Assembly (NCBI GenBank): GCA_027922465.2
Contig: BQMF02000069.1
Coordinates: forward strand, 372,001-436,000
Origin: Turritopsis dohrnii
Taxonomy: Eukaryota; Cnidaria; Hydrozoa; Anthoathecata; Oceaniidae
DNA length: 64,000 nucleotides
Direction: 5' to 3'
Shown in pieces: positions 39-57,473 of this stretch; position 1 is the stretch's first letter; every line of letters starts with the position of its first letter. The notes beneath the pieces were generated by a model, which was not told the origin of the DNA, searched no databases, and saw nothing but the letters and a program-made list of their open reading frames with translations. Made by a program: the position numbers and the translations under genes.

Positions 39-2882
39 TCAGAGGACTTTGCAAAGTTTGCACTGGCAATAAATTGGTGCACGGCGGACCTCAGTCTTGA
101 ATTCATTCAAGCCTGTTGCCTTTTTTGTTTCAGCCGACAAATGGTTCCAGGCTAATGTGGCTCCGAAAAGAAACGAATTTACACCAGCAATTCCTTTAGA
201 AGAGGGAATTTCTAATACACTACCAGAGCGCAGATTAAACATTGTTGCTTTTCGGCAGAAAGTATCCCACATAAATTGAGGATTAATTTTATGCAAGGAT
301 TTAAATACTTCAATCACTAGAAGTTCAAGGTTTCTAGCATGAATCGACTTTTGCCCTGTTTTAGTGAGAATATCAGTATAGCTGTGTCGGAACAAGCCAC
401 TTTTTGCACATAATGCTCTTCTATGAGTGATGCCGATCAGGTTGTGTGCTTGCTTGCTACAACACATCCATACTAATGGGCAATAGTTGAAACATGGAAT
501 GACGAAAGTATTAAATAACGTATCTACAATATCCTGGCTTACAAAAGGCCGTATTCGTAACAGAGCTTTTGTCTTCAAGGAAGCCTGATGACACATTCCC
601 TTAATATGGGAATAAAAAGAAAGCTTATCATCTAGTGTTATACCAAGGAGTTTAACTTCCTTTGAAGGGTTAATGGTTGTAGTACCAATTTTGAAAACAA
701 TGTCTTTACTATCAACACCTAGGAATAGCATCTGAAACTTTTCCGGGTTTGCGACAAGACCATTGTTGTTAAACCAGTTTAAAGCAGATGTCATGTCAGA
801 ATGCAAGCTTTCCAACACTTCATCTAAAGTGGCTTTACAACTGACAAGAGTATTGTCGTCGGCAAAGTTGCAGATGTCACACTCCAGTACCGAAAACAGC
901 AAATCATTAATAAAAACATTGAATAAAATTGGCCCTAGAACCGATCCCTGAGGAACACCCAAAAGAATGTCCAGCCATTCGCTGAAAAATGACCCTATAC
1001 GAACACGCTGCTTCCTATCAGACAAGTAACTGTACAGCAATTTTAATGTATCATATCCAACACCATATGCTGCCAACTTGGCTATCAATAGATCATGACG
1101 TAGACAATCAAAGGCTTTGGACAGATCCATCAAAATTGCACCCACTTTGTCGGAGTTTGAAAGGGACTTTTGCCACTGTATAAGCATATTTAACAATGCA
1201 TACTGACAGCTATATCCCCGACGAAATCCACAAAGGTATTTTGACAAAATAGAGTTCAAAAAAGGCTGCATTTGCTTGGCCATCAACCTTTCAAAAATCT
1301 TAGATACAACAGGTAGCAAACTAATAGGGCGATAATTTCCCTTATCAAGAGTATTTCCCTTCTTGTGTTGTGGAATGACATCGACGAGAGATAACTGGTC
1401 AGGAAACACAGAAGAACCAACGATAGAGCTATTAAAGCACTTCGTGAGCACTGGTGCGCATTCCTGAGCAGCAAGTTTCAAAATGTTCGTAGGAATTTGA
1501 CCGCTAACCTTCTTACTTTCATCCAAAGCTAGAATTTCCTTTAGCATATCTTCCTGAGAAACTTCAGCCAAATCAAAAGAAATATGCGATTTAAATCTAG
1601 ATCGAATAGATACAATACTTGGATGAGACGCATATTTCTCAATGGATGAGAGTACCGGGTCCTGGTGATGAATTGGAGAACCACACGGTATAGGAAGTAT
1701 ATCTAGGTTAGCAGTGATTTTGTTGAAGTGTTGATTAAATACACTTGCAACTTCCAATTCGCTTTTGAACATTTTGCCTTCGTCAACCAAAACAATGCTT
1801 TCTTTTCCGACCACAGCTTTTTCACTGAAAAACGGTTTCACGGTTTTCCAGAAATCTTTCTTCAATGTCCTTTTGCTGAAGTTGGTAAAGAAAACTTTTT
1901 TATCTAGCCTGTTTATGTTGACAACCAAGTTTCTCTGTCTCTTATAAGCTTTTAAATCATCAGGATTACTAGAACTGTTTGCAACTTTCTTAAGACGTGA
2001 GCGTCTCATAATGGCTTTCCTGAGAGCCTTAGAGACATGAGGCTGGTTATTGGCCCGGACAAACTTGGTTTTCATTGGAGCGTGCTTGTCTAGTACAGTA
2101 ATAAACTTTTGTTGAAAAACTTCATAATTTACTATATCATCAGAGTATCCAGAATATCCAGCATTCATGCAGCTACCTAGTTCTGCTAAAAAAAACATCC
2201 CTATCAAAGTCTTTGTATTTACGATAGAATACCTTTTTAGCAGAACCTTTTTCAAATGTGGTTTTCAGCATAGTGTAGATCAGAGAATGATGGTCACTTA
2301 ACCCAGTTTCGATAGTTCCTGTATTCATGAGAGAGTGTTTTCTGTTGGAAAGAATCAAGTCGATGCAAGATCCAGATGAAGCTTTCCAACAGGTTTTTTC
2401 TCTCATATGATTGTGAAGAGAGTGATTCAGAAGAAATTCACCCAAATCAGGGTTTGTCGGATCTAGGTTAAAATCACCATCTATTATAATATTGTCATAT
2501 TCAGCATAAAAATCAAGTGCATCAGAAAGCTGCCCTAGAAAAAACTGGATATTCTGTTTAGGTGGTCTATAAACATTACATAAAAGCCACTTTTGCTTGC
2601 GTAAATTTAGATCCACTAATATCACTTGCACATCAGGGTGAAAGCAGAACCTATCTAGGCGATGAGAGGGCAATTCATTTCGAACAAAAGTGAGAAGACC
2701 ACCACTATACTCTGACACGTCTAAACGATATGGTTTTGAAAAACCTTCCATCATAAACAAACCCGAAGGAAATGAAGCATCAAGTTTTGTTTCGGCGATA
2801 GTAAGGACATCGACCGAATCATTCAGTAGACACTTCAGATTTTCAAATTTATTTCTAATAGAATTTATGTTAATATCAGTCT
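39..2882 (-). pseudogene. LINE-A: non-LTR retrotransposon ORF2 (endonuclease + reverse transcriptase), frameshifted and 5'-truncated
   Basis: This is ORF2 of a non-LTR retrotransposon, read leftward. The upstream part (2173-2882) is the C-terminal two thirds of an APE-type endonuclease, with GDFN and SDHH motifs. The downstream part (39-2255, 738 aa) is a reverse transcriptase with LSKAFDCLRHDLL, GVPQGSVLGP and the catalytic FADD box, then the usual C-terminal tail ending in a short Cys cluster. The two parts lie in different frames and switch at a run of eight A at 2188-2195, consistent with a one-base indel. The endonuclease frame stays open to about 2882 without a start codon, where PLE-A begins, so the 5' end is lost. 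The 3' UTR runs off the window start. A sequencing error at the homopolymer cannot be excluded. Confidence 0.92.
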
Positions 2883-4649
2883 AATTTATCCCCCAGCGAA
2901 CAAGCTGCCCTTCGCAATTTGCTTAACAATGAAACCATTGTCATTCAAAAAGCTGACAAGGGTAATGTAGTTGTTATCATTAATAAGCATGATTATCATA
3001 ACGCCGTTAAATCGCTCCTTAAAGATGCCACTAAGTTTCGAAAAATTGATATACCAGCTGGAAAAGATATTAATTTTATTATTAGTATTGAAAATAAAAT
3101 CAAGAACGCTTGTAAACGTCTATACGAAAAAAATATTATTACTGAAACTGTTTACAAAAAACTTAGCCCTTGTGGTTCTCAGCCAGGTGTGTTATATGGC
3201 CTGCCTAAAGTCCACAAGCCTTGTGTTAACGGTGTGCCTCCATTTCGACCTATTTTGTCTGCTATTGGTACACCCAGTTACTCCTTAGCTAAGTTTTTTG
3301 TACCTTTGTTAGCTACTATTACGACCAATGAATTTACTGTCAAAGATTCTTTTTCTTTTGCTAATGACATTTGCACTCAGAACTCTCTTCATTATATGGC
3401 TAGTTTTGATGTTGATTCTCTTTTTACGAACGTTCCTCTTCATGAAACCATTGATATTTGTGTTGATCAATTGTTTCCTGAAGCCAATACTAAGGTCAAT
3501 GGGATTTCCAAAAAGGATTTTCGTAAACTTTTAGAACTCGCTTCTACTGAATCCTTTTTTATATTTGACGGTTGCTATTATAAACAGATTGATGGTGTAG
3601 CCATGGGCTCACCGCTAGGACCTACTTTAGCCAATGCTTTTATGTGCTATTATGAACGGAAATGGCTTGATGAATGCCCTGTTGAATTTAAGCCTACATA
3701 CTATAAACGATATGTAGATGATATTTTTGTAATGTTTTCTTCCCTGGATCATATAGACAAATTTTATAACTACCTTAACACGAGACATAAAAGCATTTCA
3801 TTTACTAAGGAGATTGAGAATAACTTTACTCTCTCCTTTTTGGATGTTTTTGTATCTAGGAAAGGGAATCAATTTGTAACTAATATCTACCGTAAATCAA
3901 CCTTTAGTGGTGTCTATACTAATTTTAATAGCTTTATACCTACATCTTATAAACATGGCTTAATGTACTCTTTATTACATCGCTGTTTTAATATTTGCTC
4001 TAACTATTGTAAATTCCATGAGGAAACGGTTTTTCTTAAAGATGTCTTTAAGAAGAATGGTTACCCCTCAAATATGATTAATTCTTGTATTAGGACCTTT
4101 CTCAATAGACTTTATCGACCTAAGTTGGAGGTTCACACCGTTCCGAAAAAACCGTTTTTGTTTGTTTTACCCTTTTTGGGTAATACTTCATTAAACATTC
4201 GTTCTCAGTTACATAGCCTTTTCCGAGAGAAGTTACCGCACTGTGACATTCGTGTTATATTTCGTGCCAGTGTTAAATTACGATCCCTTTTTCATTTTAA
4301 GGATAAGATTCCGATGTTGCTGCAATCTGGACTTGTTTATCGTTTTAAGTGTAGTAGCTGCAATGCTACTTATTTTGGCAAAACTAAACGCCATTTTAAA
4401 GTCCGAATTTGTGAGCATCTTGGAATCTCGCATTTAACTGACAAACAGAAATCACTACAGCCTAATCAGATTTCTGCCGTGTTAGAGCATTCTCGCCAGT
4501 GTCATGTCTCTCCTTCGTTTAACGATTTTGATATTTTGTCTCGTGAGTCTAACGACTTTAAGCTCACCATCAAGGAGAGTCTATTAATTAGCTGTGACAA
4601 ACCTAGCTTAAACAAAACTAGCCAATCTTTACCTTTAGAATTATTCTAG
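2880..4649 (+). CDS. PLE-A: 5'-truncated Penelope-like element, reverse transcriptase + GIY-YIG endonuclease
   Basis: A single open frame of about 590 codons encodes the C-terminal two thirds of a PLE protein. It starts with the conserved SNLS segment, then the QKADKGN motif, reverse transcriptase motifs (FDVDSLFTNVP, GVAMGSPLGPTLANAF, catalytic YVDD) and a C-terminal GIY-YIG-type nuclease core (VYRFKCSSCNATYFGKTKRH). The N-terminal domain of about 250 residues seen in the full-length PLE-C copy is missing. The first possible start is a TTG at 2919, and the frame is open upstream to the LINE-A junction, so no genuine start is present. The rest of the frame is undamaged. It is related to PLE-C and PLE-D and distinct from PLE-B. 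Confidence 0.93.
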   Translation, partial: SNLSPSEQAALRNLLNNETIVIQKADKGNVVVIINKHDYHNAVKSLLKDATKFRKIDIPAGKDINFIISIENKIKNACKRLYEKNIITETVYKKLSPCGSQPGVLYGLPKVHKPCVNGVPPFRPILSAIGTPSYSLAKFFVPLLATITTNEFTVKDSFSFANDICTQNSLHYMASFDVDSLFTNVPLHETIDICVDQLFPEANTKVNGISKKDFRKLLELASTESFFIFDGCYYKQIDGVAMGSPLGPTLANAFMCYYERKWLDECPVEFKPTYYKRYVDDIFVMFSSLDHIDKFYNYLNTRHKSISFTKEIENNFTLSFLDVFVSRKGNQFVTNIYRKSTFSGVYTNFNSFIPTSYKHGLMYSLLHRCFNICSNYCKFHEETVFLKDVFKKNGYPSNMINSCIRTFLNRLYRPKLEVHTVPKKPFLFVLPFLGNTSLNIRSQLHSLFREKLPHCDIRVIFRASVKLRSLFHFKDKIPMLLQSGLVYRFKCSSCNATYFGKTKRHFKVRICEHLGISHLTDKQKSLQPNQISAVLEHSRQCHVSPSFNDFDILSRESNDFKLTIKESLLISCDKPSLNKTSQSLPLELF

Positions 4650-16964: not shown

Positions 16965-17535
16965 TTTAGAACATTTCAAGACGATGTAACATGGTTTAAA
17001 CGCATGTTCAATTTGTAAGGACCGCAGTATAATTTACTTGAATACGTAAGTAAAACGTGTGTCTATGGTGGAAATAATATGACAAAAACGTCATGAAAAT
17101 CTTATTAACTAAAACATTAGCATGGCAGGCGAAAAACGCTAAACGCTGCAGCTCAAGATGTCGATAAAGTCTCTTCTTAAACAAGAAGGGGGTGGATGAG
17201 AGGTTCTATCTTTTCATGAAAAAGAAGACGTTGAAGCAAAAATCGTAAGGTAAGAATTATTTTGTCCTATCTCCAATTTGTTTAAAATGAGAAAATTAAG
17301 TTTTAAATTTCATAACCTCACTGAATCTCTAAGAAACCAACAAGATAAGACCGGCGTTTGAAGAAGATTTTGCGCTTGTTTTTGGAAAAAGCTCACTGAA
17401 AAAGAACAAAATAATCCTGAAAAACTTGGAAACAAACGGGGCTCATTTTTTTTTGTTTAAAAAAAAATTTATTTTTTACATTCTTGAAATTTATTAAAAA
17501 GTAAAAATAAAAATACCAAACATTGTTATTTGATC
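16965..17535. other. Non-coding gap
   Basis: No coding sequence or clear repeat is recognised. It becomes very AT-rich after 17440, toward the kinase/transposase unit. Confidence 0.4.
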
Positions 17536-17539
17536 GAAA

Positions 17540-17645
17540 TCAAAAGTTAATAAATGTCAACTTTACATTAAATTTAAATAAAAATCATACTTCGAAAAAA
17601 TTAAATTCAATTTGTTGATGGCCGAGGGCTGCCAAAATGTAGCTT
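17540..17645 (+). repeat. Left inverted repeat of the kinase/transposase unit
   Basis: Pairs with 20895-20990. The inner 50 bases are about 85 percent alike by eye, and similarity fades outward into AT-rich sequence. It ends about 65 bases before the alpha-kinase ATG, so it probably contains that promoter. Confidence 0.7.
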
Positions 17646-17709
17646 CCAAGTATAGCTTATAATTTAGTAAATTGCAAAGCACGTGCAAAGATAAGTATAG
17701 CGAACAAAC

Positions 17710-19106
17710 ATGGCGAAACGTGAAAGTGATGCGGACAAATGGAACAAATTTGCACAGGGTGTGAAAAATAAACGTGTAAAAAGAAACACAGAAATTGGAA
17801 AAAAAGACATAGGAAGCAATATTTTGAAAAATCAGGAGATGGTGGTGCAGTTATTGGAGAGCGAGACATCAGGAAAGGCAAAGAATTACGAGAGAGCTGG
17901 CCCCCAAGAATTTGTTGAGTTTCTCTATGATGAAGTGACATTGGAGAATATACAAGAATCTTGTAACAAACATTTTAAACCTAGGCTTTTGCCAGGCATG
18001 TTTTGCGATATTTTATCAGGGGAGAGAGGCCCGTCATGTTCAAAAACAAGTCACATACCTAACTTCAAGATTATTCACGTAAGGTTTGTAAAAAAGGAAG
18101 TCCTCGACAGTCAATCGTCCAATGTTCCATGCTATGGCAGTAGTTTGCAAAGTGATTTTTTCGGAAGATCTCCATTTTCTGGACCATCAGTTAAGAAAAC
18201 CCAAACACAATCCACAACTGTCTCATCTACAACTGGGTTTCAGCAATCTCCTATACCAAGTAAAACAGCTAAGAGCATCTCTATTTCAACTATGTTGAGA
18301 CTTGGCAAAGCAATCATTAAAACAGAGAGACCTGCAGAGACTATAGAAGTATCAGAATTTGATTTGAATAATTTAGAATGGTCTACACCAAAGGCATTGC
18401 AGTTTGTTGTAGATGATACCCCATTAGCTCAAGGTGGATTTCGTTCTGTTTTTAAAGCAAGGAGCAATGGGAAAATATTTGTTGTGAAACATTTTTTGCC
18501 AAAAACATTGGAAGAAATGGATCGTATGAATGAGAACTTGGAATCTCAAGAAACGCCTGAAATATTATCTCGTAAAGCCGTACAAAAGCATGTTCTGGCT
18601 AAAAATTTTGTGGACAGAATGAACAAACAAATAAATTCGTCAAAAGCCTTAATGTTGGTTTACGGCCATCAATTTAGTTACAATGTGGCCATGCTTGGTA
18701 AACGAAATAATGAGTTTGTTATGATTGAAGAGTTCATCCATGGTAATTTCGAAAAGTATGTAAACAACGATGGCTCACTTAGCACTGTGAAAGGAGCAAG
18801 GACTTACAGATGAAAGCAGAATGTCTTGCACATTATACCTATGCCAAATCCGAGAAAACACTGATGCTCTTGGATATCCAGGGTTGCAGATACACTTTGT
18901 TTGATCCAGAAGTGGCTTCTTTGCATGCAAATGTGAATGAAGGTTCTCTTTTGTTTGGATTAGGGAACTTATCAATAGTTGCAAAAGAAACATTTTTTAA
19001 AGGACACTCATGTAATATATTTCGCAAATCTTTAGAATTACATGATTGCTTGCAATCTCATGCAACATGTTTTTGGACTTTAAGACTGTTGTGTGAATAT
19101 GTCTGA
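17710..19106 (+). pseudogene. Alpha-kinase family protein, one frameshift
   Basis: From ATG 17710 the frame encodes an N-terminal region with a segment (residues 64-127) reading FVEFLYDEVTLENIQESC and CDILSGERGPSC, a Ser/Thr-rich linker (150-190), then an alpha-kinase domain. The domain shows QGGFRSVFKA, the presumed ATP-binding Lys in KIFVVKHF (Lys260) and the hinge-like MIEEFIHGNFEKYVNNDG. At about 18783-18800 the frame shifts by one base and continues to 19106 with ECLAHYTY, LMLLDIQG, FDPEVAS, the LFGLGNLS loop and GHSCN. The last Cys of the usual zinc-binding CNxxC motif is replaced by Arg. No introns are apparent. Alpha-kinases phosphorylate proteins; the target here is unknown. It is either a recent pseudogene or a sequencing error in an intact gene. 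Confidence 0.85.
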
Positions 19107-19384
19107 ACTCTTAGTATTTTGTTGTAGATATTTAACTCTTTAAGTTATCAGAACAGATTTTTACACATGTATAAGTATAATATATATATTGAACTATGTA
19201 CTCTCAGGTGCCAAAGATTGAAGACTAAAAGTACCTCCTCTGCTCTATAACTGTTAATTCTTGTTGTTAGCATGAATAAAGGTTATGAGGAATTGTTTAT
19301 AGAACATGTTCTTGAGGGATCTGAAATTTCAGCTAAAATGATATCCCCATGTTTGACACCTGAGAGTAGGATACTCATTTTTAT

Positions 19385-20866
19385 TTATACACTTGTTTTC
19401 AAAGTCAGATAACTCTGTACATATTCAGTTGCCTTTATTAAGCTAGGATCAGGCAGTATTTGTTCAAATGTCTTTCTCAGATCTTCGCTTAAAAAATCTT
19501 CATCTTCATCAAGAACACCTGAAAGTTCAGCAACACATTTGAGGTCATCTTCTGTCACAGTTAAACCTAAAGCATTGTACAATCTTCATTTTTGACATAT
19601 ATTTTAAGAAGAAGTCATTGAACAATCTATAGGGTTATGAATTAAAAATATACCACAGTTTTCAAGTCCATAGTGTTCAGGAAATGCATATACTTTTAAA
19701 GGCATAAAGAAACAGTATCGTAGGTTAGACATTTTGGTTATCTTATATTTGTTGCCTAGTTTTTTATAAGTATAAATACATATAAGGACCTTTAAACGGA
19801 AAATTTTCAGTTTAAAGGTCCTAGTTTGATTTATTGTATTCTTACATCCAGAAGAAATGTTCATCTCCTGTTTTTATATTTTCAGTAAAAAATCTGTTGA
19901 AAAACTTTTTACCTGTCTTCATGATTGCTGCTATCATAATGACCCTGCTCTTTTAACCAAGACAGACCGGTTTTGAAAAACATTTCTAACCGTTCGTGTA
20001 ACTCACGCCACCACCGCTCAATCTAGGGAAGAAAAATGTCTTACTATTAATTAAACCTAAAAAGTATTGGTTTATATTTATATATATCAATAACAATGAA
20101 GTATTCATTATAATACTTGATTAGCTGTAGATGGGCCATAGATGATGGAATCAGTTGGATCTTTAAGGTCATTATGTTTACCCCTCAGAAATGCATGCAT
20201 TGTTGCCATGATACCAGTCTCTGTTCCATGATCCATTCTCAAATTTGCAGGTAAGATTCTGGTCTCATAAAGATACTCTAAATACCACTTTGCAATAACT
20301 TCTGGTTTAGAATTAGTGGTCCAAATACGTAACCATAGAATTTTGCGACTGGCTGAATCGATACAACCATACACAGCTAACGGGAAAGTCGAATTCTGAT
20401 ATCCCATAAGCTTATCATGGCCATCGACTGAGAAAACCCAATTAGTTCCCTTCGTGGTAAAATGTCCTTTCCTTTTTGGTTTGTTAGATCCTGGTCTTCT
20501 GTTTTCAAGTATGGTAGGATTGACATCATACATTAAATCATGTATTCTGTCACGCGGGAGTTTGAGATTATACTTCTGTCTGACTTTATTTTGCATAGCT
20601 CTATAACCAAGTAGCTGTTCGGGTCCTTCCATCTCAGTTTTAATAACGTTTCTTGCATCGTCCATAATCACCCGTTTGTCTGTATAGTAGATTTCAAATT
20701 CACGTAATCTACGATCTAATGTGCGGATACTCCACTGATAATGAGAGTAATCTCGTTTCATAAAATCTAAAATCTCTTTGCGCTGCAATCCTTGTAGCAC
20801 GTACTTTTCAAGGTCAGCTCGAGGATCTGCATCCTCTTTCCACGTGCTATTGCAGACGCCAGCCAT
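19385..20866 (-). CDS. Integrase-type DDE transposase, spliced
   Basis: Exon 1 (20117-20866, 250 aa) has an N-terminal helical region (LEKYVLQGLQRKEILDFMKR), GPEQLLGYRAMQNKVRQKYN, then an integrase-like core with NWVFSVDGHDKLMGYQ (Asp148), YGCIDSASRKILWLRIWTTN and RMDHGTETG (Asp212). Exon 2 (19913-20022) joins in phase at the conserved sequence ending in ANQ / IERWWRELHERLEMFF, supplying the catalytic Glu252. Two further exons are likely: about 19620-19740 (FPEHYGLENCGIF) and 19385-19600, ending with VQSYLTLKTSV and a stop at 19385-19387. Their exact limits are uncertain. This protein type is widespread in animal genomes as an integrase-core transposase. It converges with the alpha-kinase gene. 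Confidence 0.82.
19785..19822. repeat. 38-bp near-perfect palindrome in a transposase intron
   Basis: AGGACCTTTAAAC pairs with GTTTAAAGGTCCT, and the centre GAAAATTTTC is itself palindromic, with only one mismatched pair overall. It lies between the second and third exons of the transposase. Confidence 0.85.
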
Positions 20867-20894
20867 CTTGATTACCTTTTCTATTAGTTATAAC

Positions 20895-20990
20895 TCAAAA
20901 CTATGTTTTGGCAGTTCTCGGCCATCAACAAATTCAATTTAGTTTTTTCAAATTATGGTTTTAATTCAATCAAACTTCAAAGTTGATTAA
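20895..20990 (-). repeat. Right inverted repeat of the kinase/transposase unit
   Basis: Inverted partner of 17540-17645 with the core TTTTGGCAGTTCTCGGCCAT. It ends about 30-40 bases before the transposase ATG at 20866. Confidence 0.7.
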
Positions 20991-21014
20991 TTTTTATTCA
21001 AAGTAAAAATAAAA

Positions 21015-21931
21015 ATGCATTGGAATTTACAAAACAAAACAAAACAACTGTTTTTGAAAAATAAAACAAGATTCGCAAAAATGCGACTATATATTTCCCC
21101 AAAGTTGCAAACATTTTATCAATTTGTGTGTACATTGATAAGAAAAATGTATCATTATAATTACAGTGGTATATATATCTACTATCAAGCTGATGTTCAG
21201 ATAAAAATGCTGTCCATACTAATCAGGGTTAATAATACTAAACGACTTATGAAATGAAGATGTACATGGTCAAATGATAAGATTTCTCTCAATGTTTGCC
21301 AAGGAGATAAAAAGTGACTTAGAATTTACTATGGACATAGCGAAAAACTGTAAGACCTAAAAGCGACTAATATTTCCCCTTAAACAACTGGAATAGTCTT
21401 TTTGCAGAACAATCTATAAAGCAATTTCGTCATAATAAACATAAGATCATTATCTATGCTGAAGACAAGCTTCATATTCTTTTAACCATAAAATCACAGA
21501 TCAGATGTAATTCAACAGAGCACTTGCTTAAACTCAGATGAAACCATCTTACAAAATTATAAAATCAAATTTGTATAAAGGTTAACAAAAGAAGAAAAAA
21601 AAATTGTCAAACCTTTGGGGGTGCGCATTTTAGCAAATAACTATAAAAAGCAATCAAAAACCAATTTTTACTAAAAATTATTATGTGTAGCATTTCAAAT
21701 TTAGGAAGAAAAAATCTCAATTTATAAAATTAAATTCAAGTATATATTCAAAATAAACATCTCTGATTCAAAAAAATATATTCACATACTATCATGTCAT
21801 ATATATTACATTAATGTAACTGACTTTTGTAAATCCCAAATAAAAAAAAAGATATTTTGGTAGTGAAAATATACACCCACTGCATATCTGGAAGTAGAAG
21901 TTTTTGTTTCGGCTTGATTTAAATTATATAC
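21015..21931. other. Non-coding AT-rich gap
   Basis: No coding signal or repeat boundary is recognised. The plus-strand frame at 21015-21257 is Lys/Tyr-rich from AT bias and is not supported as a gene. Confidence 0.4.
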
Positions 21932-37553: not shown

Positions 37554-39145
37554 GCATTGCATTTTGCTCAAAATTTTGTCATGAAACGATAGAAAAGCTA
37601 TTCCTATAGTCATTATTTAACTTACATTCTTATCTTTATTCAGTTTTAACCATCAACCATCTCTTGAATACAACATTGATATCAATTGAAAACTTGAATG
37701 ATTTGTGTAATGGTAACAAAATTTGTTCATTCATTCGATTCGAACAGGTGTATAGGAAAATATAAAAGAGAATGTATATTTATCTTCTTATCATATTGTA
37801 CAGTGCAGAGAAATGGATCACAAGTAGGTACATATTCGTTCAGAAAGCCGAGTGTGTTCATCTTACAAATCGTTACCATTACATTGATAGGTTGAAAACT
37901 CTTATAAAAGTATTTAATATAAGCCAGCCCTGAGCCTTACCCTTACTAACTCAAATACAATTCACAAGGTTTGCAGCGTAAAGAATCATGGTAACGATTT
38001 CAGACGAACGTATTAAGCCACAAAAATCACTGTCTTCTCCAATTTCCTTTTTCTTTCGAGGTGTTTTCACATGTGCTTGATATGGACATTTTATTGACTT
38101 TTCAAACATAAAATACAGTCTGTGAAAATATCGATGTACTTTGAACATTTTGTTTCAACGATAATTTGATGGCAACCCTTTAGGTTATAACTACCCATTT
38201 ACATGAGCGGCTTGCAGTTTTAAGTGACTGAGGGAAAAAAAGGTTTTTCCTGAAACATAATTGCCCAATATGGTTATACGACGGAGAAAATTTTGGGTTC
38301 AAGAAACTCTTAAAACGACTCAGAGGCTTTTAAAAAACGCATTTTATTTGTTGATAATGCACACAAATGTACTAATGAAATTAAATCATTCTTATGAAAA
38401 GTCACTGGAGATCCTTTGAGTTCCGACGCCTTGCTGCTTCTATCAATGATATTTTATCTGCTATATCAGTTTGGACATTTAAAATTGACAACGAATTGAA
38501 TCCTTTTTGACCCACAGTTCATCTGATCCAAGTTTCGATAATCTTTTGTTTAAAAAAGAGCGTTCAGACTTGTCAGTGTGATCAGAATTATGGTCAAGAC
38601 GTTCCTTATCAATTGTCGTTTTCGCATATTTCGCGAAAATCAGCTGGTGCAGACTGATAAAAAATGGAGGGAAGGAGATGTTGGAGGTGGATTTCGCCGG
38701 AGATTTCGATCGTGTTCATTTGGAAAGCAATTTCATCTCCTTCACTCCATTTTTTATCAGTGTGAATAGACCGTACTCGAATTTTTTTGTGCTTTGTCTA
38801 AACCAACAAGTATGGTCTCCTTTTAAAGATGTAAATTGCTTTTAATTATCCCACCACGGAATGGAAATAATAAATGAATAAGTAAGAAGAAATATAGAAT
38901 AAAAGTAGAATGTACAGAAACGAGGGGAAACTTGATAACAGGTGTATAAACAGAAAGGTTTAATAGTGTTCGGCAAACGATTAAGTTGATCTATATGCGA
39001 ATTTTCAAATAAATGAAATGAAAGCACTTTGGTTTGCGTCCGAGAATTGAAATGTTTATGGAATCAAGTCAAATGTCGAATTTGTTGGTGATGAGATTTT
39101 AACCATTCAATTCTTCTACATCTTCTGGTATCTTTATCATTTTAG
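37554..39145. other. Gap upstream of the PAN gene
   Basis: No first exon for the downstream gene could be fixed here. It contains a hairpin MITE at about 38652-38762. Otherwise nothing is recognised. Confidence 0.4.
38652..38762. mobile_element. Short hairpin MITE
   Basis: ACTGATAAAAAATGGAGGGA followed by AGGAGATG (38653-38681) is repeated in inverted orientation at 38734-38762, with one mismatch over about 27 pairs and a loop of about 52 bases. Outside the arms the similarity decays quickly. A miRNA-type precursor is an alternative reading. Confidence 0.6.
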
Positions 39146-40736
39146 AATTCTTGTCTTTGTGTGTTGTTGGTTCGTTGCGATTTGCAAGATATTGCGGTTA
39201 CCTTGCAAGTTTGACGCTGACTTTTCAGCCATCAATCCAGATACATATCTACAAAGCAATTTAACTGCACTACACGAAGATGTTGTTGTGACAGAGTGCA
39301 TCAAGTTATGTATTCTGGAAACGACATGCAAATCATTTAGCTACAATAAGGTAGAAAGTAAATGTGCTTTGTTTGACGCTGTCTTGGAAGATGTTAGTGC
39401 TGAAGATGTCGAACGTCTGGGTTGGATTCATTATCAAACTGAAGCAAAGAAAACAAAGGTAACCGTCATTTTCTTAGTGACTAAGCTATTGAATCCGAAA
39501 CAACGTTTGACCTTGAGAAGGTTTGAATCTCAGATGTAGCATTAAAACATTAATTCTTTCACATTAATCTAAGTCTTCCGAAACTAAAGTTAAATTCACG
39601 TCACCAGTTTAAAGTTTTATAAGAGGTCTTGATAAAATAACAGCTACACAGCGGCGTATCGTGAAAAATAAATGGAGGGTCCAATTAAAGAATAAAAAGG
39701 GCACTGAATTTTAAAATTATAGCTTAATACTTATTTGTGTTATGAGCATCGAACTTCTATTTTTGATTGTTTTTAGAATTCAAAGCGGTATAACAATTTA
39801 TTAGAACAACTAATTACATCTCTTAATATTTTTTCTACGAGAAAATCTCCAACAAGATAGGCTTGATTACCTTGTTTGTTTGAGATGTTGTTATTAATAA
39901 TACCTGCTCGTTCCAATCCCGTCTCTTATTGTTCAAACTTATTGTTCTTTCTAGTTATGACAGTTCCCATAAAAGCCGTTAAAAGTATTCACTGCAATTT
40001 ACATATACACACCGTACATAGCTAAATGACAGTGAATCCCAATAGAAAGAAATTACCAAGAAGAATAAATTTCAGAATGAATGTTCTCATGTTGTTTTAT
40101 TATTTGAGATAATGTCGAGTAAATCATTTTTGCAAAAGTATCTGATACTCATTTTTTACAGGTTGGTGAAGTTTGCCAAGAATTAGATCCATGCCCTCTT
40201 CAGTATTGCGAAGATATATGCGAAGCGCCGGGATTTCATTGTGGCTTAGGTAATCTTAAACGCATATTCAGTCAATTTTAGGACAGGATATTTCCCCCTC
40301 CCTTGAAGATGAGTGAGGTCTTTTACCAACGCGATATGAAGCAACTCAACAATTTCAATTTATTAGTGGGTCTAACATTGTCATTCTACTAAAAGCAGTC
40401 TCTGAGTAGGTTAAAATGCAAATAGCTTTCTGTCTAGAAGCTGTTAGATTGAGAAAAAGCTGACTAAACAGTAATATTAAATTTGAAACTAAAAACTATT
40501 TTTTAGTATTATGCGAATTCAAAGCCGGCGATGGTCTTGGCAGTAGTGAAACTTACATTGGTGATGGTTTCACTGAAAAACAATGCGTTGAAAGGTGTTG
40601 GAACACTAAGAAAAAGATTTCTACAACAAATGGGGCAACTATCAGCACCGATGGTCAAGGAAGGTGTTATTGTGAAAGAAACATGTCAAAAAGAGAGGAA
40701 AACCCATTGTACAACAGCTGCATCTTTGGAGAATGA
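39146..40736 (+). CDS. Secreted PAN/apple-domain and cysteine-rich protein, copy 1 (5' exon missing)
   Basis: Three exons join in phase. Exon a (about 39146-39458, acceptor ATCATTTTAG) encodes a hydrophobic signal-like stretch (ILVFVCCWFVAICKIL) and a PAN/apple-like domain with CKFDADF and ECIKLCILETTCKSFSYNK. Exon b (40162-40249) encodes a Cys-rich segment (VCQELDPCPLQYCEDICEAP). Exon c (40507-40736) encodes FKAGDGLGSSETYIGDGFTE, CVERCW and GRCYCERNMSKREENPLYNS, then CIFGE and a stop at 40734. Exon c is read in a frame different from the longest ATG frame. Donor and acceptor phases (0, then 1) fit perfectly. The starting Met is probably in an upstream exon that I could not identify. Likely an extracellular adhesion or lectin-like protein; function unknown. 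Confidence 0.72.
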
Positions 40737-41255
40737 TAGAACTACAACCATGATATGTTCTTGCAGGTTTTTCGTGTTCTCTACTTTCAATATATAGAGA
40801 TTTGCTAAGAGGTCGTTGCATTTGGTTCCTTCCAAATGCTGAACAAGACGACGTTAAATGTCTTACACCATGAAGCTGTGATGCCTCAATGTGGCGATTT
40901 TAACAGGGCTCCTAATAAGAAACGTATCACACACAACAGTGAATATTACAAACCCGAACTGAGTCTACAAAACTTTTTGTAAGAAACAAAAGATTGTTGT
41001 TATAAGAAAAAACACGAAAATTTCTTATTTTTCGCTGACGTCAGCACGCAAAATTTTTTTTTTCAATTTTTGCTTTGGTTTCCCGATTTCTCACACTTTG
41101 AACAAGCTCTGTACAAAATTTGAAGAATATATCTTCAATTGACATAGAGTTACGGCTGTTTTTCTTGATAATCTAGGTATTTATTAATTCTCGTCTGTAA
41201 CATACACACCCTGAAGAAATTTGAAAACTGCTTACATTGTTATTTTAATTTAACT

Positions 41256-42735
41256 CAATTTAACTGCACTACACGAAGATGTTGTTGTGACAGAGTGCAT
41301 CAAGTTATGTATTCTGGAAACGACATGCAAATCATTTAGCTACAATAAGGTAGAAAGTAAATGTGCTTTGTTTGACGCTGTCTTGGAAGATGTTAGTGCT
41401 GAAGATGTCGAACGTCTGGGTTGGATTCATTATCAAACTGAAGCAAAGAAAACAAAGGTAACCGTCATTTTCTTAGTGACTAAGCTATTGAATCCGAAAC
41501 AACGTTTGACCTTGAGAAGGTTTGAATCTCAGATGTAGCATTAAAACATTAATTCTTTCACATTAATCTAAGTCTTCCGAAACTAAAGTTAAATTCACGT
41601 CACCAGTTTAAAGTTTTATAAGAGGTCTTGATAAAATAACAGCTACACAGCGGCGTATCGTGAAAAATAAATGGAGGGTCCAATTAAAGAATAAAAAGGG
41701 CACTGAATTTTAAAATTATAGCTTAATACTTATTTGTGTTATGAGCATCGAACTTCTATTTTTGATTGTTTTTAGAATTCAAAGCGGTATAACAATTTAT
41801 TAGAACAACTAATTACATCTCTTAATATTTTTTCTACGAGAAAATCTCCAACAAGATAGGCTTGATTACCTTGTTTGTTTGAGATGTTGTTATTAATAAT
41901 ACCTGCTCGTTCCAATCCCGTCTCTTATTGTTCAAACTTATTGTTCTTTCTAGTTATGACAGTTCCCATAAAAGCCGTTAAAAGTATTCACTGCAATTTA
42001 CATATACACACCGTACATAGCTAAATGACAGTGAATCCCAATAGAAAGAAATTACCAAGAAGAATAAATTTCAGAATGAATGTTCTCATGTTGTTTTATT
42101 ATTTGAGATAATGTCGAGTAAATCATTTTTGCAAAAGTATCTGATACTCATTTTTTACAGGTTGGTGAAGTTTGCCAAGAATTAGATCCATGCCCTCTTC
42201 AGTATTGCGAAGATATATGCGAAGCGCCGGGATTTCATTGTGGCTTAGGTAATCTTAAACGCATATTCAGTCAATTTTAGGACAGGATATTTCCCCCTCC
42301 CTTGAAGATGAGTGAGGTCTTTTACCAACGCGATATGAAGCAACTCAACAATTTCAATTTATTAGTGGGTCTAACATTGTCATTCTACTAAAAGCAGTCT
42401 CTGAGTAGGTTAAAATGCAAATAGCTTTCTGTCTAGAAGCTGTTAGATTGAGAAAAAGCTGACTAAACAGTAATATTAAATTTGAAACTAAAAACTATTT
42501 TTTAGTATTATGCGAATTCAAAGCCGGCGATGGTCTTGGCAGTAGTGAAACTTACATTGGTGATGGTTTCACTGAAAAACAATGCGTTGAAAGGTGTTGG
42601 AACACTAAGAAAAAGATTTCTACAACAAATGGGGCAACTATCAGCACCGATGGTCAAGGAAGGTGTTATTGTGAAAGAAACATGTCAAAAAGAGAGGAAA
42701 ACCCATTGTACAACAGCTGCATCTTTGGAGAATGA
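41256..42735 (+). pseudogene. PAN/cysteine-rich gene, 5'-truncated copy 2
   Basis: Same exons as copy 1, shifted by 1,999 bases: exon a remnant to 41457, exon b 42161-42248, exon c 42506-42735. The unit starts inside exon a, so the signal-like stretch and first PAN cysteine are missing, and an in-frame TAA lies a few bases upstream of the junction. It could only be expressed as extra 3' exons if spliced from exon b onward, which phase would not prevent. Confidence 0.75.
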
Positions 42736-43254
42736 TAGAACTACAACCATGATATGTTCTTGCAGGTTTTTCGTGTTCTCTACTTTCAATATATAGAGAT
42801 TTGCTAAGAGGTCGTTGCATTTGGTTCCTTCCAAATGCTGAACAAGACGACGTTAAATGTCTTACACCATGAAGCTGTGATGCCTCAATGTGGCGATTTT
42901 AACAGGGCTCCTAATAAGAAACGTATCACACACAACAGTGAATATTACAAACCCGAACTGAGTCTACAAAACTTTTTGTAAGAAACAAAAGATTGTTGTT
43001 ATAAGAAAAAACACGAAAATTTCTTATTTTTCGCTGACGTCAGCACGCAAAATTTTTTTTTTCAATTTTTGCTTTGGTTTCCCGATTTCTCACACTTTGA
43101 ACAAGCTCTGTACAAAATTTGAAGAATATATCTTCAATTGACATAGAGTTACGGCTGTTTTTCTTGATAATCTAGGTATTTATTAATTCTCGTCTGTAAC
43201 ATACACACCCTGAAGAAATTTGAAAACTGCTTACATTGTTATTTTAATTTAACT

Positions 43255-44734
43255 CAATTTAACTGCACTACACGAAGATGTTGTTGTGACAGAGTGCATC
43301 AAGTTATGTATTCTGGAAACGACATGCAAATCATTTAGCTACAATAAGGTAGAAAGTAAATGTGCTTTGTTTGACGCTGTCTTGGAAGATGTTAGTGCTG
43401 AAGATGTCGAACGTCTGGGTTGGATTCATTATCAAACTGAAGCAAAGAAAACAAAGGTAACCGTCATTTTCTTAGTGACTAAGCTATTGAATCCGAAACA
43501 ACGTTTGACCTTGAGAAGGTTTGAATCTCAGATGTAGCATTAAAACATTAATTCTTTCACATTAATCTAAGTCTTCCGAAACTAAAGTTAAATTCACGTC
43601 ACCAGTTTAAAGTTTTATAAGAGGTCTTGATAAAATAACAGCTACACAGCGGCGTATCGTGAAAAATAAATGGAGGGTCCAATTAAAGAATAAAAAGGGC
43701 ACTGAATTTTAAAATTATAGCTTAATACTTATTTGTGTTATGAGCATCGAACTTCTATTTTTGATTGTTTTTAGAATTCAAAGCGGTATAACAATTTATT
43801 AGAACAACTAATTACATCTCTTAATATTTTTTCTACGAGAAAATCTCCAACAAGATAGGCTTGATTACCTTGTTTGTTTGAGATGTTGTTATTAATAATA
43901 CCTGCTCGTTCCAATCCCGTCTCTTATTGTTCAAACTTATTGTTCTTTCTAGTTATGACAGTTCCCATAAAAGCCGTTAAAAGTATTCACTGCAATTTAC
44001 ATATACACACCGTACATAGCTAAATGACAGTGAATCCCAATAGAAAGAAATTACCAAGAAGAATAAATTTCAGAATGAATGTTCTCATGTTGTTTTATTA
44101 TTTGAGATAATGTCGAGTAAATCATTTTTGCAAAAGTATCTGATACTCATTTTTTACAGGTTGGTGAAGTTTGCCAAGAATTAGATCCATGCCCTCTTCA
44201 GTATTGCGAAGATATATGCGAAGCGCCGGGATTTCATTGTGGCTTAGGTAATCTTAAACGCATATTCAGTCAATTTTAGGACAGGATATTTCCCCCTCCC
44301 TTGAAGATGAGTGAGGTCTTTTACCAACGCGATATGAAGCAACTCAACAATTTCAATTTATTAGTGGGTGTAACATTGTCATTCCACTAAAAGCAGTCTC
44401 TGAGTAGGTTAAAATGCAAATAGCTTTCTGTCTAGAAGCTGTTAGATTGAGAAAAAGCTGACTAAACAGTAATATTAAATTTGAAACTAAAAACTATTTT
44501 TTAGTATTATGCGAATTCAAAGCCGGCGATGGTCTTGGCAGTAGTGAAACTTACATTGGTGATGGTTTCACTGAAAAACAATGCGTTGAAAGGTGTTGGA
44601 ACACTAAGAAAAAGATTTCTACAACAAATGGGGCAACTATCAGCACCGATGGTCAAGGAAGGTGTTATTGTGAAAGAAACATGTCAAAAAGAGAGGAAAA
44701 CCCATTGTACAACAGCTGCATCTTTGGAGAATGA
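43255..44734 (+). pseudogene. PAN/cysteine-rich gene, 5'-truncated copy 3
   Basis: Exon a remnant to 43456, exon b 44160-44247, exon c 44505-44734. It has the same truncation as copy 2. The coding segments look identical to copies 1 and 2; the two differences I noticed are in the intron between exons b and c. Confidence 0.75.
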
Positions 44735-45244
44735 TAGAACTACAACCATGATATGTTCTTGCAGGTTTTTCGTGTTCTCTACTTTCAATATATAGAGATT
44801 TGCTAAGAGGTCGTTGCATTTGGTTCCTTCCAAATGCTGAACAAGACGACGTTAAATGTCTTACACCATGAAGCTGTGATGCCTCAATGTGGCGATTTTA
44901 ACAGGGCTCCTAATAAGAAACGTATCACACACAACAGTGAATATTACAAACCCGAACTGAGTCTACAAAACTTTTTGTAAGAAACAAAAGATTGTTGTTA
45001 TAAGAAAAAACACGAAAATTTCTTATTTTTCGCTGACGTCAGCACGCAAAATTTTTTTTTTCAATTTTTGCTTTGGTTTCCCGATTTCTCACACTTTGAA
45101 CAAGCTCTGTACAAAATTTGAAGAATATATCTTCAATTGACATAGAGTTACGGCTGTTTTTCTTGATAATCTAGGTATTTATTAATTCTCGTCTGTAACA
45201 TACACACCCTGAAGAAATTTGAAAACTGCTTACATTGTTATTTT

Positions 45245-45931
45245 GAAACTTCAGATATATACCTTCAATATGGCATAGGTCCCAATCTGTTCAATTGACA
45301 GTCAAGGTTGACTGACACTGACACTAGCTGACAGACTATAAGTGGCTGTAATCTCCAACACTCTCAAGCAAGGTAAAAAACAATGAAACAATAGCTGAAA
45401 TATTTTGTATGTAGCTAGGTGCTACCACACTCAGTGATAGTGCAAACATTAGGCTTGCCAAAAAATAAATGCATTTTTTTAAGAAACACATTATCCTAAG
45501 ACGAAATCCTAAACAAAGGAAGCAAGCTGATTGATATCGAAACTCCGCATCATTCGCAACACTGCACAATGTTAGTGTAGTAGACAGTACCTGTTGTAAG
45601 TCGACAGGCGGAAAAAATAATCGGAAGAGATTACAATTACTTAATAACCAATGCAGGGCCAATTTTCAAGGTTGAAAATAATTTAGAGGAGGTACTATTT
45701 TGCTGGCGAGAATCATGAATGAATATGGAAGGATTATTTTGAGATAACGAGACAACAGACATCCGTGATAAGAATTATTGACTGGTAGCCTTATGATTGA
45801 GTGCTCGCTTTCTGCTGCAGAGGTTGTTGGTTCAATATCAGCGACTATAAAAGTGTGAATCATTCCTCTAGCGCGAGGGTAGAAATGAAGTCTATGTTGG
45901 CTGTCTAGTTGGGCGCTTCTTGTCACTACAT
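45245..45931. other. Gap between the tandem array and PLE-C
   Basis: Mostly unrecognised sequence. A tRNA-like segment lies at 45783-45845. The last ten bases before PLE-C belong to its target duplication. Confidence 0.45.
45783..45845 (+). repeat. tRNA-derived SINE-like segment
   Basis: TGGTAGCCTTATGATTGAGT resembles an A box region, and GGTTCAATATC fits the B-box pattern at about 35 bases spacing. The sequence around them does not close an acceptor stem, so it is read as a SINE head or relic. Confidence 0.45.
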
Positions 45932-47880
45932 CTTCTTTACGTGCCTTCAATAACCATGGGATTGAAAGTAATTTGTCTAATGAGGAACTGGATGCCTTAA
46001 AAAAGCTTTCTAAAAAATTGGATATAGTCATCCAGAAGTCAGATAAGGGGAATTCTGTTGTCATTGTGGACAAAGCTGCATACGTTAATCGGGTCGTTTC
46101 GCTTTTGAGTGACACTGACAAATTTCAATCTCTTGATATTGAAGAGCACAAACAATTAAATTTTATAATCAATCAAGAAAAACGAATTAGATCGGTTTTT
46201 AAGTCTCTATTGGATAGTGGTACTATTAGCAACGAAGTTTATAATAAGTTATGTCCCACAGGTTCACGTTTTGGTACTATGTATGGCTTACCTAAAGTCC
46301 ACAAAAAGATCATCGACAATTGTCCCCAGTATCGCCCTATTTTGTCGGCTATAGGTACGCCTACTTACAATCTTGCTAAGTTTTTGGTCCCTTTGTTATC
46401 TGGTTTGACCACTAATGAGTTCACTGTTAAGGACTCTTTTACTTTTGCTAAAGAGGTAGTTAAACAAGACGCTGGCTTATTTATGGCTAGCCTCGACGTT
46501 GACTCTCTCTTTACAAATATTCCTCTGGAGGAGACTCTCGATATTTGTGTTAACAGTTTGTTTAACAACACGGACTCTGTGGAGGGACTCTCACGTAGAG
46601 ACTTTAGGAGGCTTCTTTGTCTTGCTGTTTCCGAATCGTATTTTGTTTTTAATGGGAAGTGTTACAAGCAAATTGATGGTGTAGCTATGGGCTCCCCCTT
46701 AGGCCCCACTTTAGCCAACACTTTTTTATGTTATCATGAGAAGAACTGGTTAGAAAATTGTCCTTCTAACTTTAAGCCATTATATTATAGACGTTATGTT
46801 GACGATATTTTTGTTCTTTTTTCTTCACAAGAACACGTTTCTCTGTTCAAAAGTTATTTATCTAGTCGCCATGCTAACATCAATTTTTCATCCGAGGAGG
46901 AGAGTGGTAATAGGATGCCTTTTCTAGATGTTAGCATTGAAAGAGTCAACGGCCAATTTGCTACTTCTGTTTATCGGAAACCCACTTTTAGTGGATTGTA
47001 TACTAACTTCACTAGTTTCATTCCCATATCATATAAGATTGGTTTGGTTTCCACCTTGATTTTTCGATGTTTTTCGATTTGTTCCGATATGTCACGTTTT
47101 CATGAAGAGCTTGTTAAGCTCAAAGAAATCTTTAAGAAAAATGGGTATCCTCTATCTCTGATTGATAAGTGTATTCGAATATTTTTTGAAAAATTATTTT
47201 CTGTACGGGAGACTATTGTTACAGTCCCCAAGAAGGATCTTATTATTGTTATTCCTTACCTGGGTAAACTTTCCTTGCAAACTAGATCCAGGTTGTCCAA
47301 GGTTTGTAGGGATAGTTTACCTTGCTGTAAGTTACAGGTTATTTTTAAAACTTCAGTTAGGTTATCTAGTTTTTTCAAATTCAAGGATAGAGTGAAAAAG
47401 GAGCTCTTGTCCGGAGTCGTTTATAAATTTACGTGTGGTTGCTGCAATGCTACCTATATTGGTAAAACTAAACGACATCTCAGGGTGAGAGCTTCTGAAC
47501 ACTTAGGCACATCCGCACTCACTGGCAAACGTGCAGTTTCTTGTAGAACGGCCATTAAGGACCATTTATTGTCATGTGATCACTCTCCTTGCTTTGACGA
47601 TTTCAGTATTCTCGCTTCTTCTAGTAACAATTTTCGTTTGGAATTGATGGAGAGTCTTTTAATCTCTCGGGACTGTCCTGTTTTAAATCGTAATTTAACT
47701 TCTATACCATTATTTCTTTACAGTTGAATACTCTGTATTTGCTTTATCACCTTATATGGTTATTTCTGATATTTATTATTGACACATCAAGGCGTGTTTT
47801 TTTTTAGTATATATAGACTGAAATTGTAAAAAATATTTACTTGAAAATGCTGGCTGTGGCCAGCGAAACGTCGTAATACT
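45932..47880 (+). repeat. PLE-C partial upstream copy (head-to-tail)
   Basis: These bases repeat 48746-50695. The only difference I noticed is one base in a T run of the 3' tail. The copy encodes the last 584 residues of the PLE protein (45973-47727) with all reverse transcriptase and GIY-YIG motifs. It is followed directly by the complete copy. Such a partial copy in tandem with a full one is the classic PLE arrangement and acts like a long terminal repeat. Confidence 0.93.
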
Positions 47881-48021
47881 GTGTTATACTTTGTTTACCT
47901 TATTTCGCTGCCGTGCAGGAAATCAACATGATTAACACACTTTACAAGTTTCTGCTATCGCTGTTATGGTAACGTAAGTCGAATATGCAACCACGTTCTT
48001 GGATTAGTCAATTAAATTATC

Positions 48022-55180: not shown

Positions 55181-56725
55181 CAGTGAACTCTCTATAACTC
55201 GAATACCCACGGGGAATTGGAAACCGTTCGAGTTATAGAGAGTTTCGAGTAATAGAGAGTTGGGAGTTTTTCCAAGATTTTGTTGAAACTTTTATACAAA
55301 TGGCCAATTAAGCTTGATTTTTTCCTTATATGGATTGGGGAGGAAAGAATTAAAAAATAAATACCAAATATTATATCTCGACAATTTATCCTTGGGAAAA
55401 GAAATCAGAAATTACAGTTTGCTTTTGTGCATTAAGGACATCTTTCTCGACAATTTGATTCAAGTCCTTAAGTGATTTCATCATTGCCTCCCCGAAATTT
55501 GAAAAGAGGCTGAAATCTTCAAGAACACTGATAGCTCTCCGCACTTCTGTATTCGTTGGTTTAGTTACTGTATCTTCATTCTCTTCGTCGTTATTTTCTT
55601 CGTCCGCTTCGTTTTGTTGTTGAGTTCCTGTTACTTCGGCAATTATATCAGCAGTTGTTAGTCTTCCATGCGATGTGGTTACCTCGATATCGAAATCTAC
55701 ATAATCGTCGGTTGTGATGTCGGTGTCGATTTGGTCAGCAAACCTTTCTTTAAGAACCGATAAATCAGCATTCAGAGTCTGAATAACGTCTTCTTCTACA
55801 TCTTCATCTCCTAACCCTTTAAATGGATCATCCTCTTCATTAATGGATTTTTCAGCATCCTTCTGCGAGATTCCAGATTTTTTGAAGCAGTTGGTGAATG
55901 TCTGATTGGAAACCTCGTCCCAGGCTTTCTTCAACATGTACATTGCTGATAGAATGGAGAATTTTGGGATAGGCTCATTTTTTTCCAAAGCATTGATGAG
56001 CTTACGAACGGCATGTGAACGATACTTTGCTTTCAAGGCTCGAATGATACCTTGGTCCATTGGTTGTGTGTGTGATGTGGTGTTTGGAGGTAGGAATATC
56101 AATTCTATCCATTTCAGATTTTGAACATGCGGATGGGCTGTGCAATTGTCGATAATCAAGGCGATCTTACGTTTAAAGACGGCAAATTTACGATCGAGCT
56201 CACGTACCCATTCCTCAAAGAGTTCTCCTGACATCCAACTTTTGTTCTGTGCACGGTATCGGCAAGGCAAGGTTTTAACTCCCTTAAAACAACGAGGTTT
56301 GACGGATTTCCCAATCACAAACATGGGTAATCTCTCTCCGTAGGCATTTCCAGCAGCCAAACCAGTGAGTCGGACTTTACTGAGTTTCCCCCCAGAACAT
56401 TTTTTTCCTTTTAGATGTAGGGTTTTGTTAGGCAAACACTGGTAAAATAAGCCAAATTCATCCGCATTGAAAATATTTTCCAATGCGTATCGGGAGAGGA
56501 TAGTTGGCAATGTTGTCTCCGTCCATGGCGCTGTCATCTCTTCAGTTACCGATTTCGATTCCCCAGCGATACTTTTAAACGATATACCGTACCTGAAAAA
56601 ATAAGAAGAATGAAAGTTTGAAGACATCTTACATTTTCTTTCTCGTGTAAATACAACTTAAAAATTCGAATTGGAAAACATTCGATTTTCGTATGCAAAA
56701 TTTTGTGTTGTGAAAAAAATAAGAG

Positions 56726-57178
56726 ATGAATGAAATGGAAAGAATGATGGCAGTCGAAGCAAAGTTAGAAGACATTCTTTCTTGTGAGGACATTCCAATT
56801 GTCAGACTTATTCAATATGAAATTAATGCTTTTGTCATGGGTTACCACGTTTATAAAAATAATTGGACCCCCTCAGTGGGAGATGAATTTCAAAGTTTCA
56901 TGGAGTCGACAAATATAATGGACAAATACGCAGTAGCTGTTAAAAAAGACGATGGAGAAGTTATTGGTCATCTCCCGCTTGAAAGATCTGGAAAGTTTGC
57001 AAAAACTGTTTTTTATTTTCTAAAAGCTGACAAAAGTCATGGGTGTACAATAACCGTCACTGGAAAGGCCATAAATGCTGGTGATGGCCTCGGGATGAAA
57101 GTTCCATGTAAACTATTTTTTCTCGCCGAAAAAAAGTTTATTGATATTTTACAAGAAAAGCTAGCAAAACTTTTGTAA
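56726..57178 (+). CDS. HIRAN-like domain protein encoded antisense in the transposase intron
   Basis: An intact 150-residue frame on the strand opposite to the transposase, wholly inside its 674-bp intron (56593-57266). Residues 30-140 match the HIRAN pattern: FVMGYHVYKNNWTPSVGDEF, then N-x-x-D-K-Y-A-V-A-V, GEVIGHLPLERSGKFAKTVF, the TVTGKAINAGDGLG stretch and VPCKLFF. HIRAN domains bind DNA 3' ends in HLTF-type proteins. Here it stands alone with a short acidic N-terminal helix (MNEMERMMAVEAKLEDIL). Several Met codons could be the start; the first is given. Its location suggests a passenger gene of the transposon. Captured host DNA is an alternative. Confidence 0.75.
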   Translation: MNEMERMMAVEAKLEDILSCEDIPIVRLIQYEINAFVMGYHVYKNNWTPSVGDEFQSFMESTNIMDKYAVAVKKDDGEVIGHLPLERSGKFAKTVFYFLKADKSHGCTITVTGKAINAGDGLGMKVPCKLFFLAEKKFIDILQEKLAKLL

Positions 57179-57473
57179 AACATTATACATGTTACATGTT
57201 ATTTACATGATATGTACATTATTTTGTTTTTGTATAAAACAAAATGAAAATAAAAAGTTGACACACCTGTCTTTCCATCTTGTAAGCCATCCATCTGACG
57301 CTTGAAACGATTCAATACCCAACTCTTTAGCGAACTCCAGGGCTTTCTCCTTAAGCATCGGTCCACTAATAGGAATATTTTCACTTCGCAACAACACCAA
57401 CCATTTGTAGACGGCTTTGTTTACTTGCTCGTATTTTTCTGGTTTAACACGTTTTGACAACTGCCCACTGTTA

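Follow-up and report, generated by a model that had tools for sequence, protein, structure and literature searches.

We analyzed a 64,000-nt stretch of the genome of the hydrozoan Turritopsis dohrnii (contig BQMF02000069.1, positions 372,001 to 436,000; the window, with positions counted from its first base), in which a pair of long inverted repeats encloses two convergent genes, an alpha-kinase on the + strand starting at 17710 and an integrase-type transposase on the - strand starting at 20866. On balance we read this unit as a decayed two-gene transposon of the IS3EU type, with the kinase as an accessory factor that would phosphorylate the transposase or host proteins in transposition. Judged from its sequence the unit is a decayed copy, with a frame break and a lost zinc-ligand cysteine in the kinase and a missing internal segment in the transposase. 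The pairing of kinase and transposase is not new, being already in print for fungi.

Inverted Repeats and Gene Arrangement

The arms and the two genes are arranged as follows.

17557..17661, + strand: left inverted-repeat arm (inverted match to the right arm by pairing, BLAST and shuffles)
20882..20986, - strand: right inverted-repeat arm (inverted match to the left arm by pairing, BLAST and shuffles)
17710..18780, + strand: alpha-kinase gene part 1, which covers the N-terminal domain and the beginning of the kinase domain (Pfam Alpha_kinase 3.2e-08, relatives, tblastn with P0121 and P0125, fold model)
18804..19106, + strand: alpha-kinase gene part 2, continuing in a different frame to the stop codon (Pfam Alpha_kinase 1.8e-13 over 18783-19106, tblastn)
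20117..20866, - strand: transposase exon 1, with the first two catalytic aspartates (Pfam rva_4 9.8e-08; 64.6% identity to P0001)
20023..20116, - strand: transposase intron 1, GT..AG (splice sites read from the sequence; at least 86 of 120 relatives read into a V here)
19913..20022, - strand: transposase exon 2, with the catalytic glutamate in IERWW (70% identity to P0001)
19654..19705, - strand: transposase exon 3 remnant, start uncertain (tblastn)
19385..19566, - strand: transposase last exon and stop codon (tblastn; splice sites read from the sequence)

The two arms are 105 nt long each and 76% complementary without gaps, and BLAST of 17400-21100 against the whole window aligned one arm with the other over 88 bp with 79.5% identity (E 4e-16), in agreement with the repeats of about 90-110 bp around two convergent genes that an earlier, sequence-only reading of this DNA had described. 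Local alignment of the two ends scored 58, compared to a maximum of 22 among 1000 dinucleotide shuffles, and this score was attained by none of 830 random window pairs (best 32). Inverted repeats of more than 30 bp are stated for rust IS3EU families in the passage of PMC12730594 that describes them, and the arms here exceed that length.

The start codons had been placed within the repeats by the same reading; they lie instead inward of the arms' inner edges, by 49 bases for the kinase (17710) and by 16 bases for the transposase (20866). A TATAA word, read from the sequence, is located upstream of both start codons. Because the starts adjoin the arms and each has this word upstream, the arms may serve as two promoters. 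The two gene ends are 278 bp apart (19107-19384), and no third gene was found in this gap, which contains no open reading frame (ORF) of at least 80 amino acids.

The Alpha-Kinase Gene

Both pieces of the + strand gene matched Pfam Alpha_kinase (PF02816), with 34.3 and 51.5 bits compared to a cut-off of 21.3, confirming the kinase assignment of the sequence-only reading, and the same family was matched by 18 of 18 kinase relatives. Comparison by tblastn with P0121 and P0125 placed the gene in frame 1 until ~18780, after which it continues in frame 3 (from 18789-18804), with the match of part 2 to P0121 ending at 19022. An assembly error may be an alternative cause of this frame break. The final cysteine of the H.CN..C motif, which we take to be zinc-binding as in TRPM7, has been replaced by arginine in this copy.

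A total of 125 distinct kinase relatives were identified, 30 by sequence search and 103 by profile search. Ninety-three of the 125 cover both the NNxG and the D[ILV]QG motifs, and among these the glycine loop is kept in 90, DPE in 91 and the zinc motif H.CN..C in 84. The nearest solved structure by sequence is 1ia9, an animal TRP-channel kinase domain (1.2e-28). Preceding the kinase domain is an N-terminal domain (~17818-18114), which modeling predicts to be ubiquitin-like. Cnidarian relatives and those of a hemichordate carry annotations such as TRPM6-like, vwkA-like or myosin-heavy-chain-kinase-like, and some kinase clusters contain many near-identical members (up to 132). The profiles of the kinase and of the transposase both returned no relative from the viral and prokaryotic contig collections.

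The Transposase Gene

The - strand gene matched Pfam rva_4, as expected of the DDE integrase-type transposase that had been proposed for it. The search yielded 684 transposase relatives, and motif counts, intron counts and the tree described below are based on the best 120 of these. DGH, the first catalytic motif, was present in 116 of the 120 and the second catalytic motif, with a narrow pattern, in 84. NxIExWW was found in 25, a low count because most rows end at the intron. This intron follows GPSTxNQ, where at least 86 of the 120 relatives read into V and 24 run on into the next exon; the remaining 10 were left unclassed by the pattern, several of these having a variant motif that reads into this V as well. 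The window's copy lacks an internal segment after exon 2 and ahead of the exon 3 remnant, where 23 residues of P0001 or 39 of P0003 went unmatched in tblastn.

Pfam analysis of 17 aligned relatives identified rva_4 in all 17, HTH_21 in six and rve in two, with no zinc finger among the eight families listed. P0001 has no cysteine before the first catalytic D. The transposase has, as far as its sequence tells, the character by which IS3EU/GingerRoot is recognized, that of an integrase-type DDE enzyme lacking the HHCC finger. NCBIfam models matched over the same 17 relatives were IS481 (two relatives; best 5.9e-06), IS3 (three; best 0.0017) and IS630 (one; 0.012), together with an unrelated lipoprotein model (0.0039). 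These profile matches are a modest indication of the IS3EU/GingerRoot/IS481EU group among eukaryotic transposons, as outlined in passages of PMC10045372, and membership of the IS3EU superfamily is likely. No solved structure was matched in a sequence search with the transposase profile.

One further feature lies within the transposase gene and could be a small hairpin element.

19772..19834, no strand: imperfect palindrome of 63 bp between exon 2 and the exon 3 remnant (self-inverted BLAST match, 84%)

Association of Kinase and Transposase

Three exact contig sizes, 6387, 5357 and 26658 nt, occur in both the kinase and the transposase lists, and the source labels agree within each pair.

6387-nt contig: kinase P0125 and transposase P0024 (basis: exact nt size)
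5357-nt contig: kinase P0132 and transposase P0053 (basis: exact nt size)
26658-nt contig: kinase P0230 and transposase P0017 (basis: exact nt size)

The comparison covered the listed rows that give a contig, 123 for the kinase and 117 for the transposase (the latter from the best 120 of 684). As a control, each kinase contig size was jittered by 0.5 to 10% in 20,000 runs. Counting matches of at least 5,000 nt, three were obtained in none of the 20,000 runs and two in nine; weighing against the pairing, this cut was chosen after the matches were seen, the sharing of contigs was judged by size alone, and with contigs of any size 1,458 of the 20,000 jittered controls gave at least three matches.

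The transposase tree (120 rows: the window plus 119 listed relatives, after one of the 120 was dropped because it lacked the trimming motif) placed the window and the three paired transposases in a supported set of 40 of the 120 rows (98/92), within which a narrower set of 33 rows was weak (75/71). The kinase tree (101 rows: the window's N-terminal piece and 100 of the 125 relatives, with 25, mostly short, left out) placed the window and the three paired kinases in a clade of 33 of the 101 rows, supported by a Shimodaira-Hasegawa-like approximate likelihood ratio test value of 99 from a quick method with no bootstrap. Hydrozoan proteins (Clytia, Hydractinia) fell on the window's side of the 33-row splits for three of four transposases, the exception being P0072, and for both of two kinases. 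All eight other named transposases (Dendronephthya, Actinostola, Exaiptasia, Ciona) and all five other named kinases (Saccoglossus, Actinia, Dendronephthya, Paramuricea) fell on the opposite side. This division of named species in both trees fits a joint inheritance of the pair, the transposase split itself being weak, and it gives a slight hint of a hydrozoan-like source for the window. Because three contigs agree in size and both trees group the window with the three pairs, the two genes probably travel together in marine-invertebrate elements. The mobile kinase-transposase unit of the sequence-only reading is supported by the contigs that appear from their sizes to hold both genes, by the matching tree groups and by the shared inverted ends.

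Ends of the Unit and Target Duplication

The outer ends of the unit are AT-rich and diverged, and a scan of candidate ends gave several candidate termini and many 6-bp matches in the flanks, as would be expected of AT-rich DNA. A longer, A-rich and exact direct repeat of 17 bp flanks the unit.

17498..17514, + strand: 17-bp word, copy 1, possible target duplication (exact direct repeat)
21000..21016, + strand: 17-bp word, copy 2, possible target duplication (exact direct repeat)

A shared word of 17 bp was attained in none of 2000 shuffles, and one of 12 bp in 95 of the 2000. This repeat is a possible target duplication that fits the arms poorly, because it would leave ~42 and 13 bases between the two ends and the starts of the arms. 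Duplications of 15-17 bp have been reported for IS481-like and IS1202-like elements in the passages of PMC10045372 that treat them.

Role of the Kinase

In the mechanism we propose, each arm would be the promoter of the gene starting beside it, as its position suggests. The transposase would bind, cut and join the arms as other DDE enzymes of its family do, moving the unit. The kinase would be brought to a partner by its predicted ubiquitin-like N-terminal domain and would phosphorylate that partner through its kinase domain; the partner could be the transposase, a silencing factor or chromatin. We regard the kinase as probably a conserved accessory factor, and not as cargo acquired recently. 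The cargo role assigned to it by the sequence-only reading is doubtful, and recent passive cargo is disfavored because the active-site motifs are conserved, with the catalytic motifs kept in most relatives, and because the pair recurs in fungi.

Several further points weigh against the reading of the unit as an IS3EU-type transposon with a working kinase. BLAST found no further copy of 17400-21100 in the 64-kb window, and the scan of the outer ends gave no unambiguous case of TA..TA termini or of a 6-bp target duplication. The IS3 matches are near noise, as the same scan gives an unrelated lipoprotein model a value of 0.0039, and no NCBIfam family was matched by the first transposase member. 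The members of the kinase clusters may represent one locus sequenced repeatedly. Finally, 125 kinase relatives compared to 684 transposase relatives leave many transposases that may be without a kinase.

A somewhat unlikely variant, which is one branch of the explanation we favor and whose probability is not to be added to it, is that the kinase counters the defences of the host and phosphorylates, for instance, proteins of silencing or of chromatin and not the transposase. The predicted ubiquitin-like domain could aim the kinase at host proteins, and according to the passage in PMC12730594 the kinase-bearing fungal IS3EU elements also carry a TET/JBP gene that the author thinks aids escape from methylation-based silencing.

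It is unlikely that the kinase rides along as a passenger, having been captured by the element from a host alpha-kinase gene and playing no role in transposition. A host-kinase origin is plausible given that the nearest solved relative is an animal TRP-channel kinase domain, the kinase is broken in this copy, and fungal transposons of several superfamilies have acquired TET/JBP genes (PMC12730594, same passage). However, most of the relatives that cover the catalytic and zinc motifs retain them, the pair recurs in fungi and, by nt size, on three other contigs, and both trees group the window with the three pairs. A chance neighborhood, with a long-inverted-repeat transposon that happens to overlap or adjoin a single gene of a host kinase family, has in its favor that the 64-kb window provides a single copy as its basis. 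It is very improbable given that both genes have an arm immediately upstream, that both also occur, by nt size, on three further contigs, that some kinase clusters are many-membered and that the same pairing occurs in fungi (PMC12730594, in the passage concerned).

Returning to the accessory-factor explanation, we offer as a tentative extension that an alpha-kinase with a ubiquitin-like targeting domain could be an ancestral, dedicated second gene of IS3EU, either kept with the transposase since fungi and animals split or passed between them with the element, and that through this kinase the transposon could license its own transposition. Such elements could then be the source of the strong expansion of the alpha-kinase family in rusts that is described in a passage of PMC4469406. 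If the kinase is a working part, it would let the transposon control, by phosphorylation, either the host or the movement of the element itself, and could help explain the rust expansion, for which a transposon source is what we infer. Some of the genes annotated as TRPM6-like, vwkA-like or myosin-heavy-chain-kinase-like may in that case be transposon genes.

Other Features of the Window

A Tc5/pogo-like transposase was identified on the - strand, with DDE_1 at 55386-56657 and HTH_Tnp_Tc5 at 57203-57541. Between these two parts, on the opposite strand, is a HIRAN-like ORF (56723-57178, +; E 0.00054, below the Pfam cut-off), possibly another accessory gene. The region 39001-44998 contains three head-to-tail copies of a ~2 kb unit with a PAN-domain ORF, with 1744 bp at 99.9-100% identity between copies, reflecting either a very recent duplication or an assembly artefact. 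Two + strand ORFs (45889-47727 and 48016-50541) have a long common C-terminal part and are similar to an ORF at 2874-4649 that scores RVT_1; all may be retroelement remains.

Comparison with Known Systems

Among the literature matches listed for a DNA transposon with an alpha-kinase, only the fungal passage of PMC12730594 described one, and a search combining IS3EU, alpha-kinase and transposase returned only that paper. Phrases for transposon-encoded kinases gave no match, and no study of the kinase's role in such elements was found among the matches listed. PMC6505742 was rejected as a precedent, the 'alpha kinase' of its passage being EIF2AK3, and the passages of PMC9587614 and PMC5225508 name no alpha-kinase.

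The kinase resembles the solved alpha-kinases (TRP-channel kinase 1ia9, myosin heavy chain kinase A, eEF2K and ALPK1) in its kinase domain, by sequence profile and by the predicted fold of a relative's model, and differs from them in its N-terminal domain and transposon setting. In layout the unit resembles MuDR of maize, in which a transposase gene and an accessory gene of unclear role are convergent and each starts beside one long inverted-repeat arm. Identity with MuDR was set aside, since its transposase belongs to another family and its accessory gene encodes something other than a kinase.

Ginger1 elements are likewise eukaryotic DNA transposons that combine long inverted repeats with a transposase of integrase-like type, in which a zinc finger and a GPY/F motif are accompanied by a protease domain, OTU or Ulp1 (passages of PMC2836005). 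No OTU or Ulp1 protease domain or zinc finger was present among the Pfam families listed for 17 transposase relatives (three of which end at the intron), and Ginger1 was set aside for this reason.

IS3EU/GingerRoot transposases, as described in passages of PMC10045372, are integrase-like DDE enzymes without an HHCC finger, as is the one here, and are kin of IS3 and IS481, a kinship at which the few NCBIfam matches here may hint. Those elements have TA..TA ends and a 6-bp duplication, whereas the ends here are ambiguous, and the account in these passages does not mention the kinase that is present here.

The closest likeness in print, which runs counter to the earlier suggestion of an undescribed system, is to the TET-bearing IS3EU families of fungi. 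In all of these families a TET/JBP gene is located between oppositely oriented transposase and alpha-kinase genes (PMC12730594, in the passage on these families). Here the two genes are separated by only 278 bp without such a gene, and the ends TAYGG..CCRTA with a 6-bp duplication found there were not recovered here. An alpha-kinase opposite to the transposase is shared by the two, as are, in the case of the rust families, long inverted repeats, with fungal hosts there and an animal host here.
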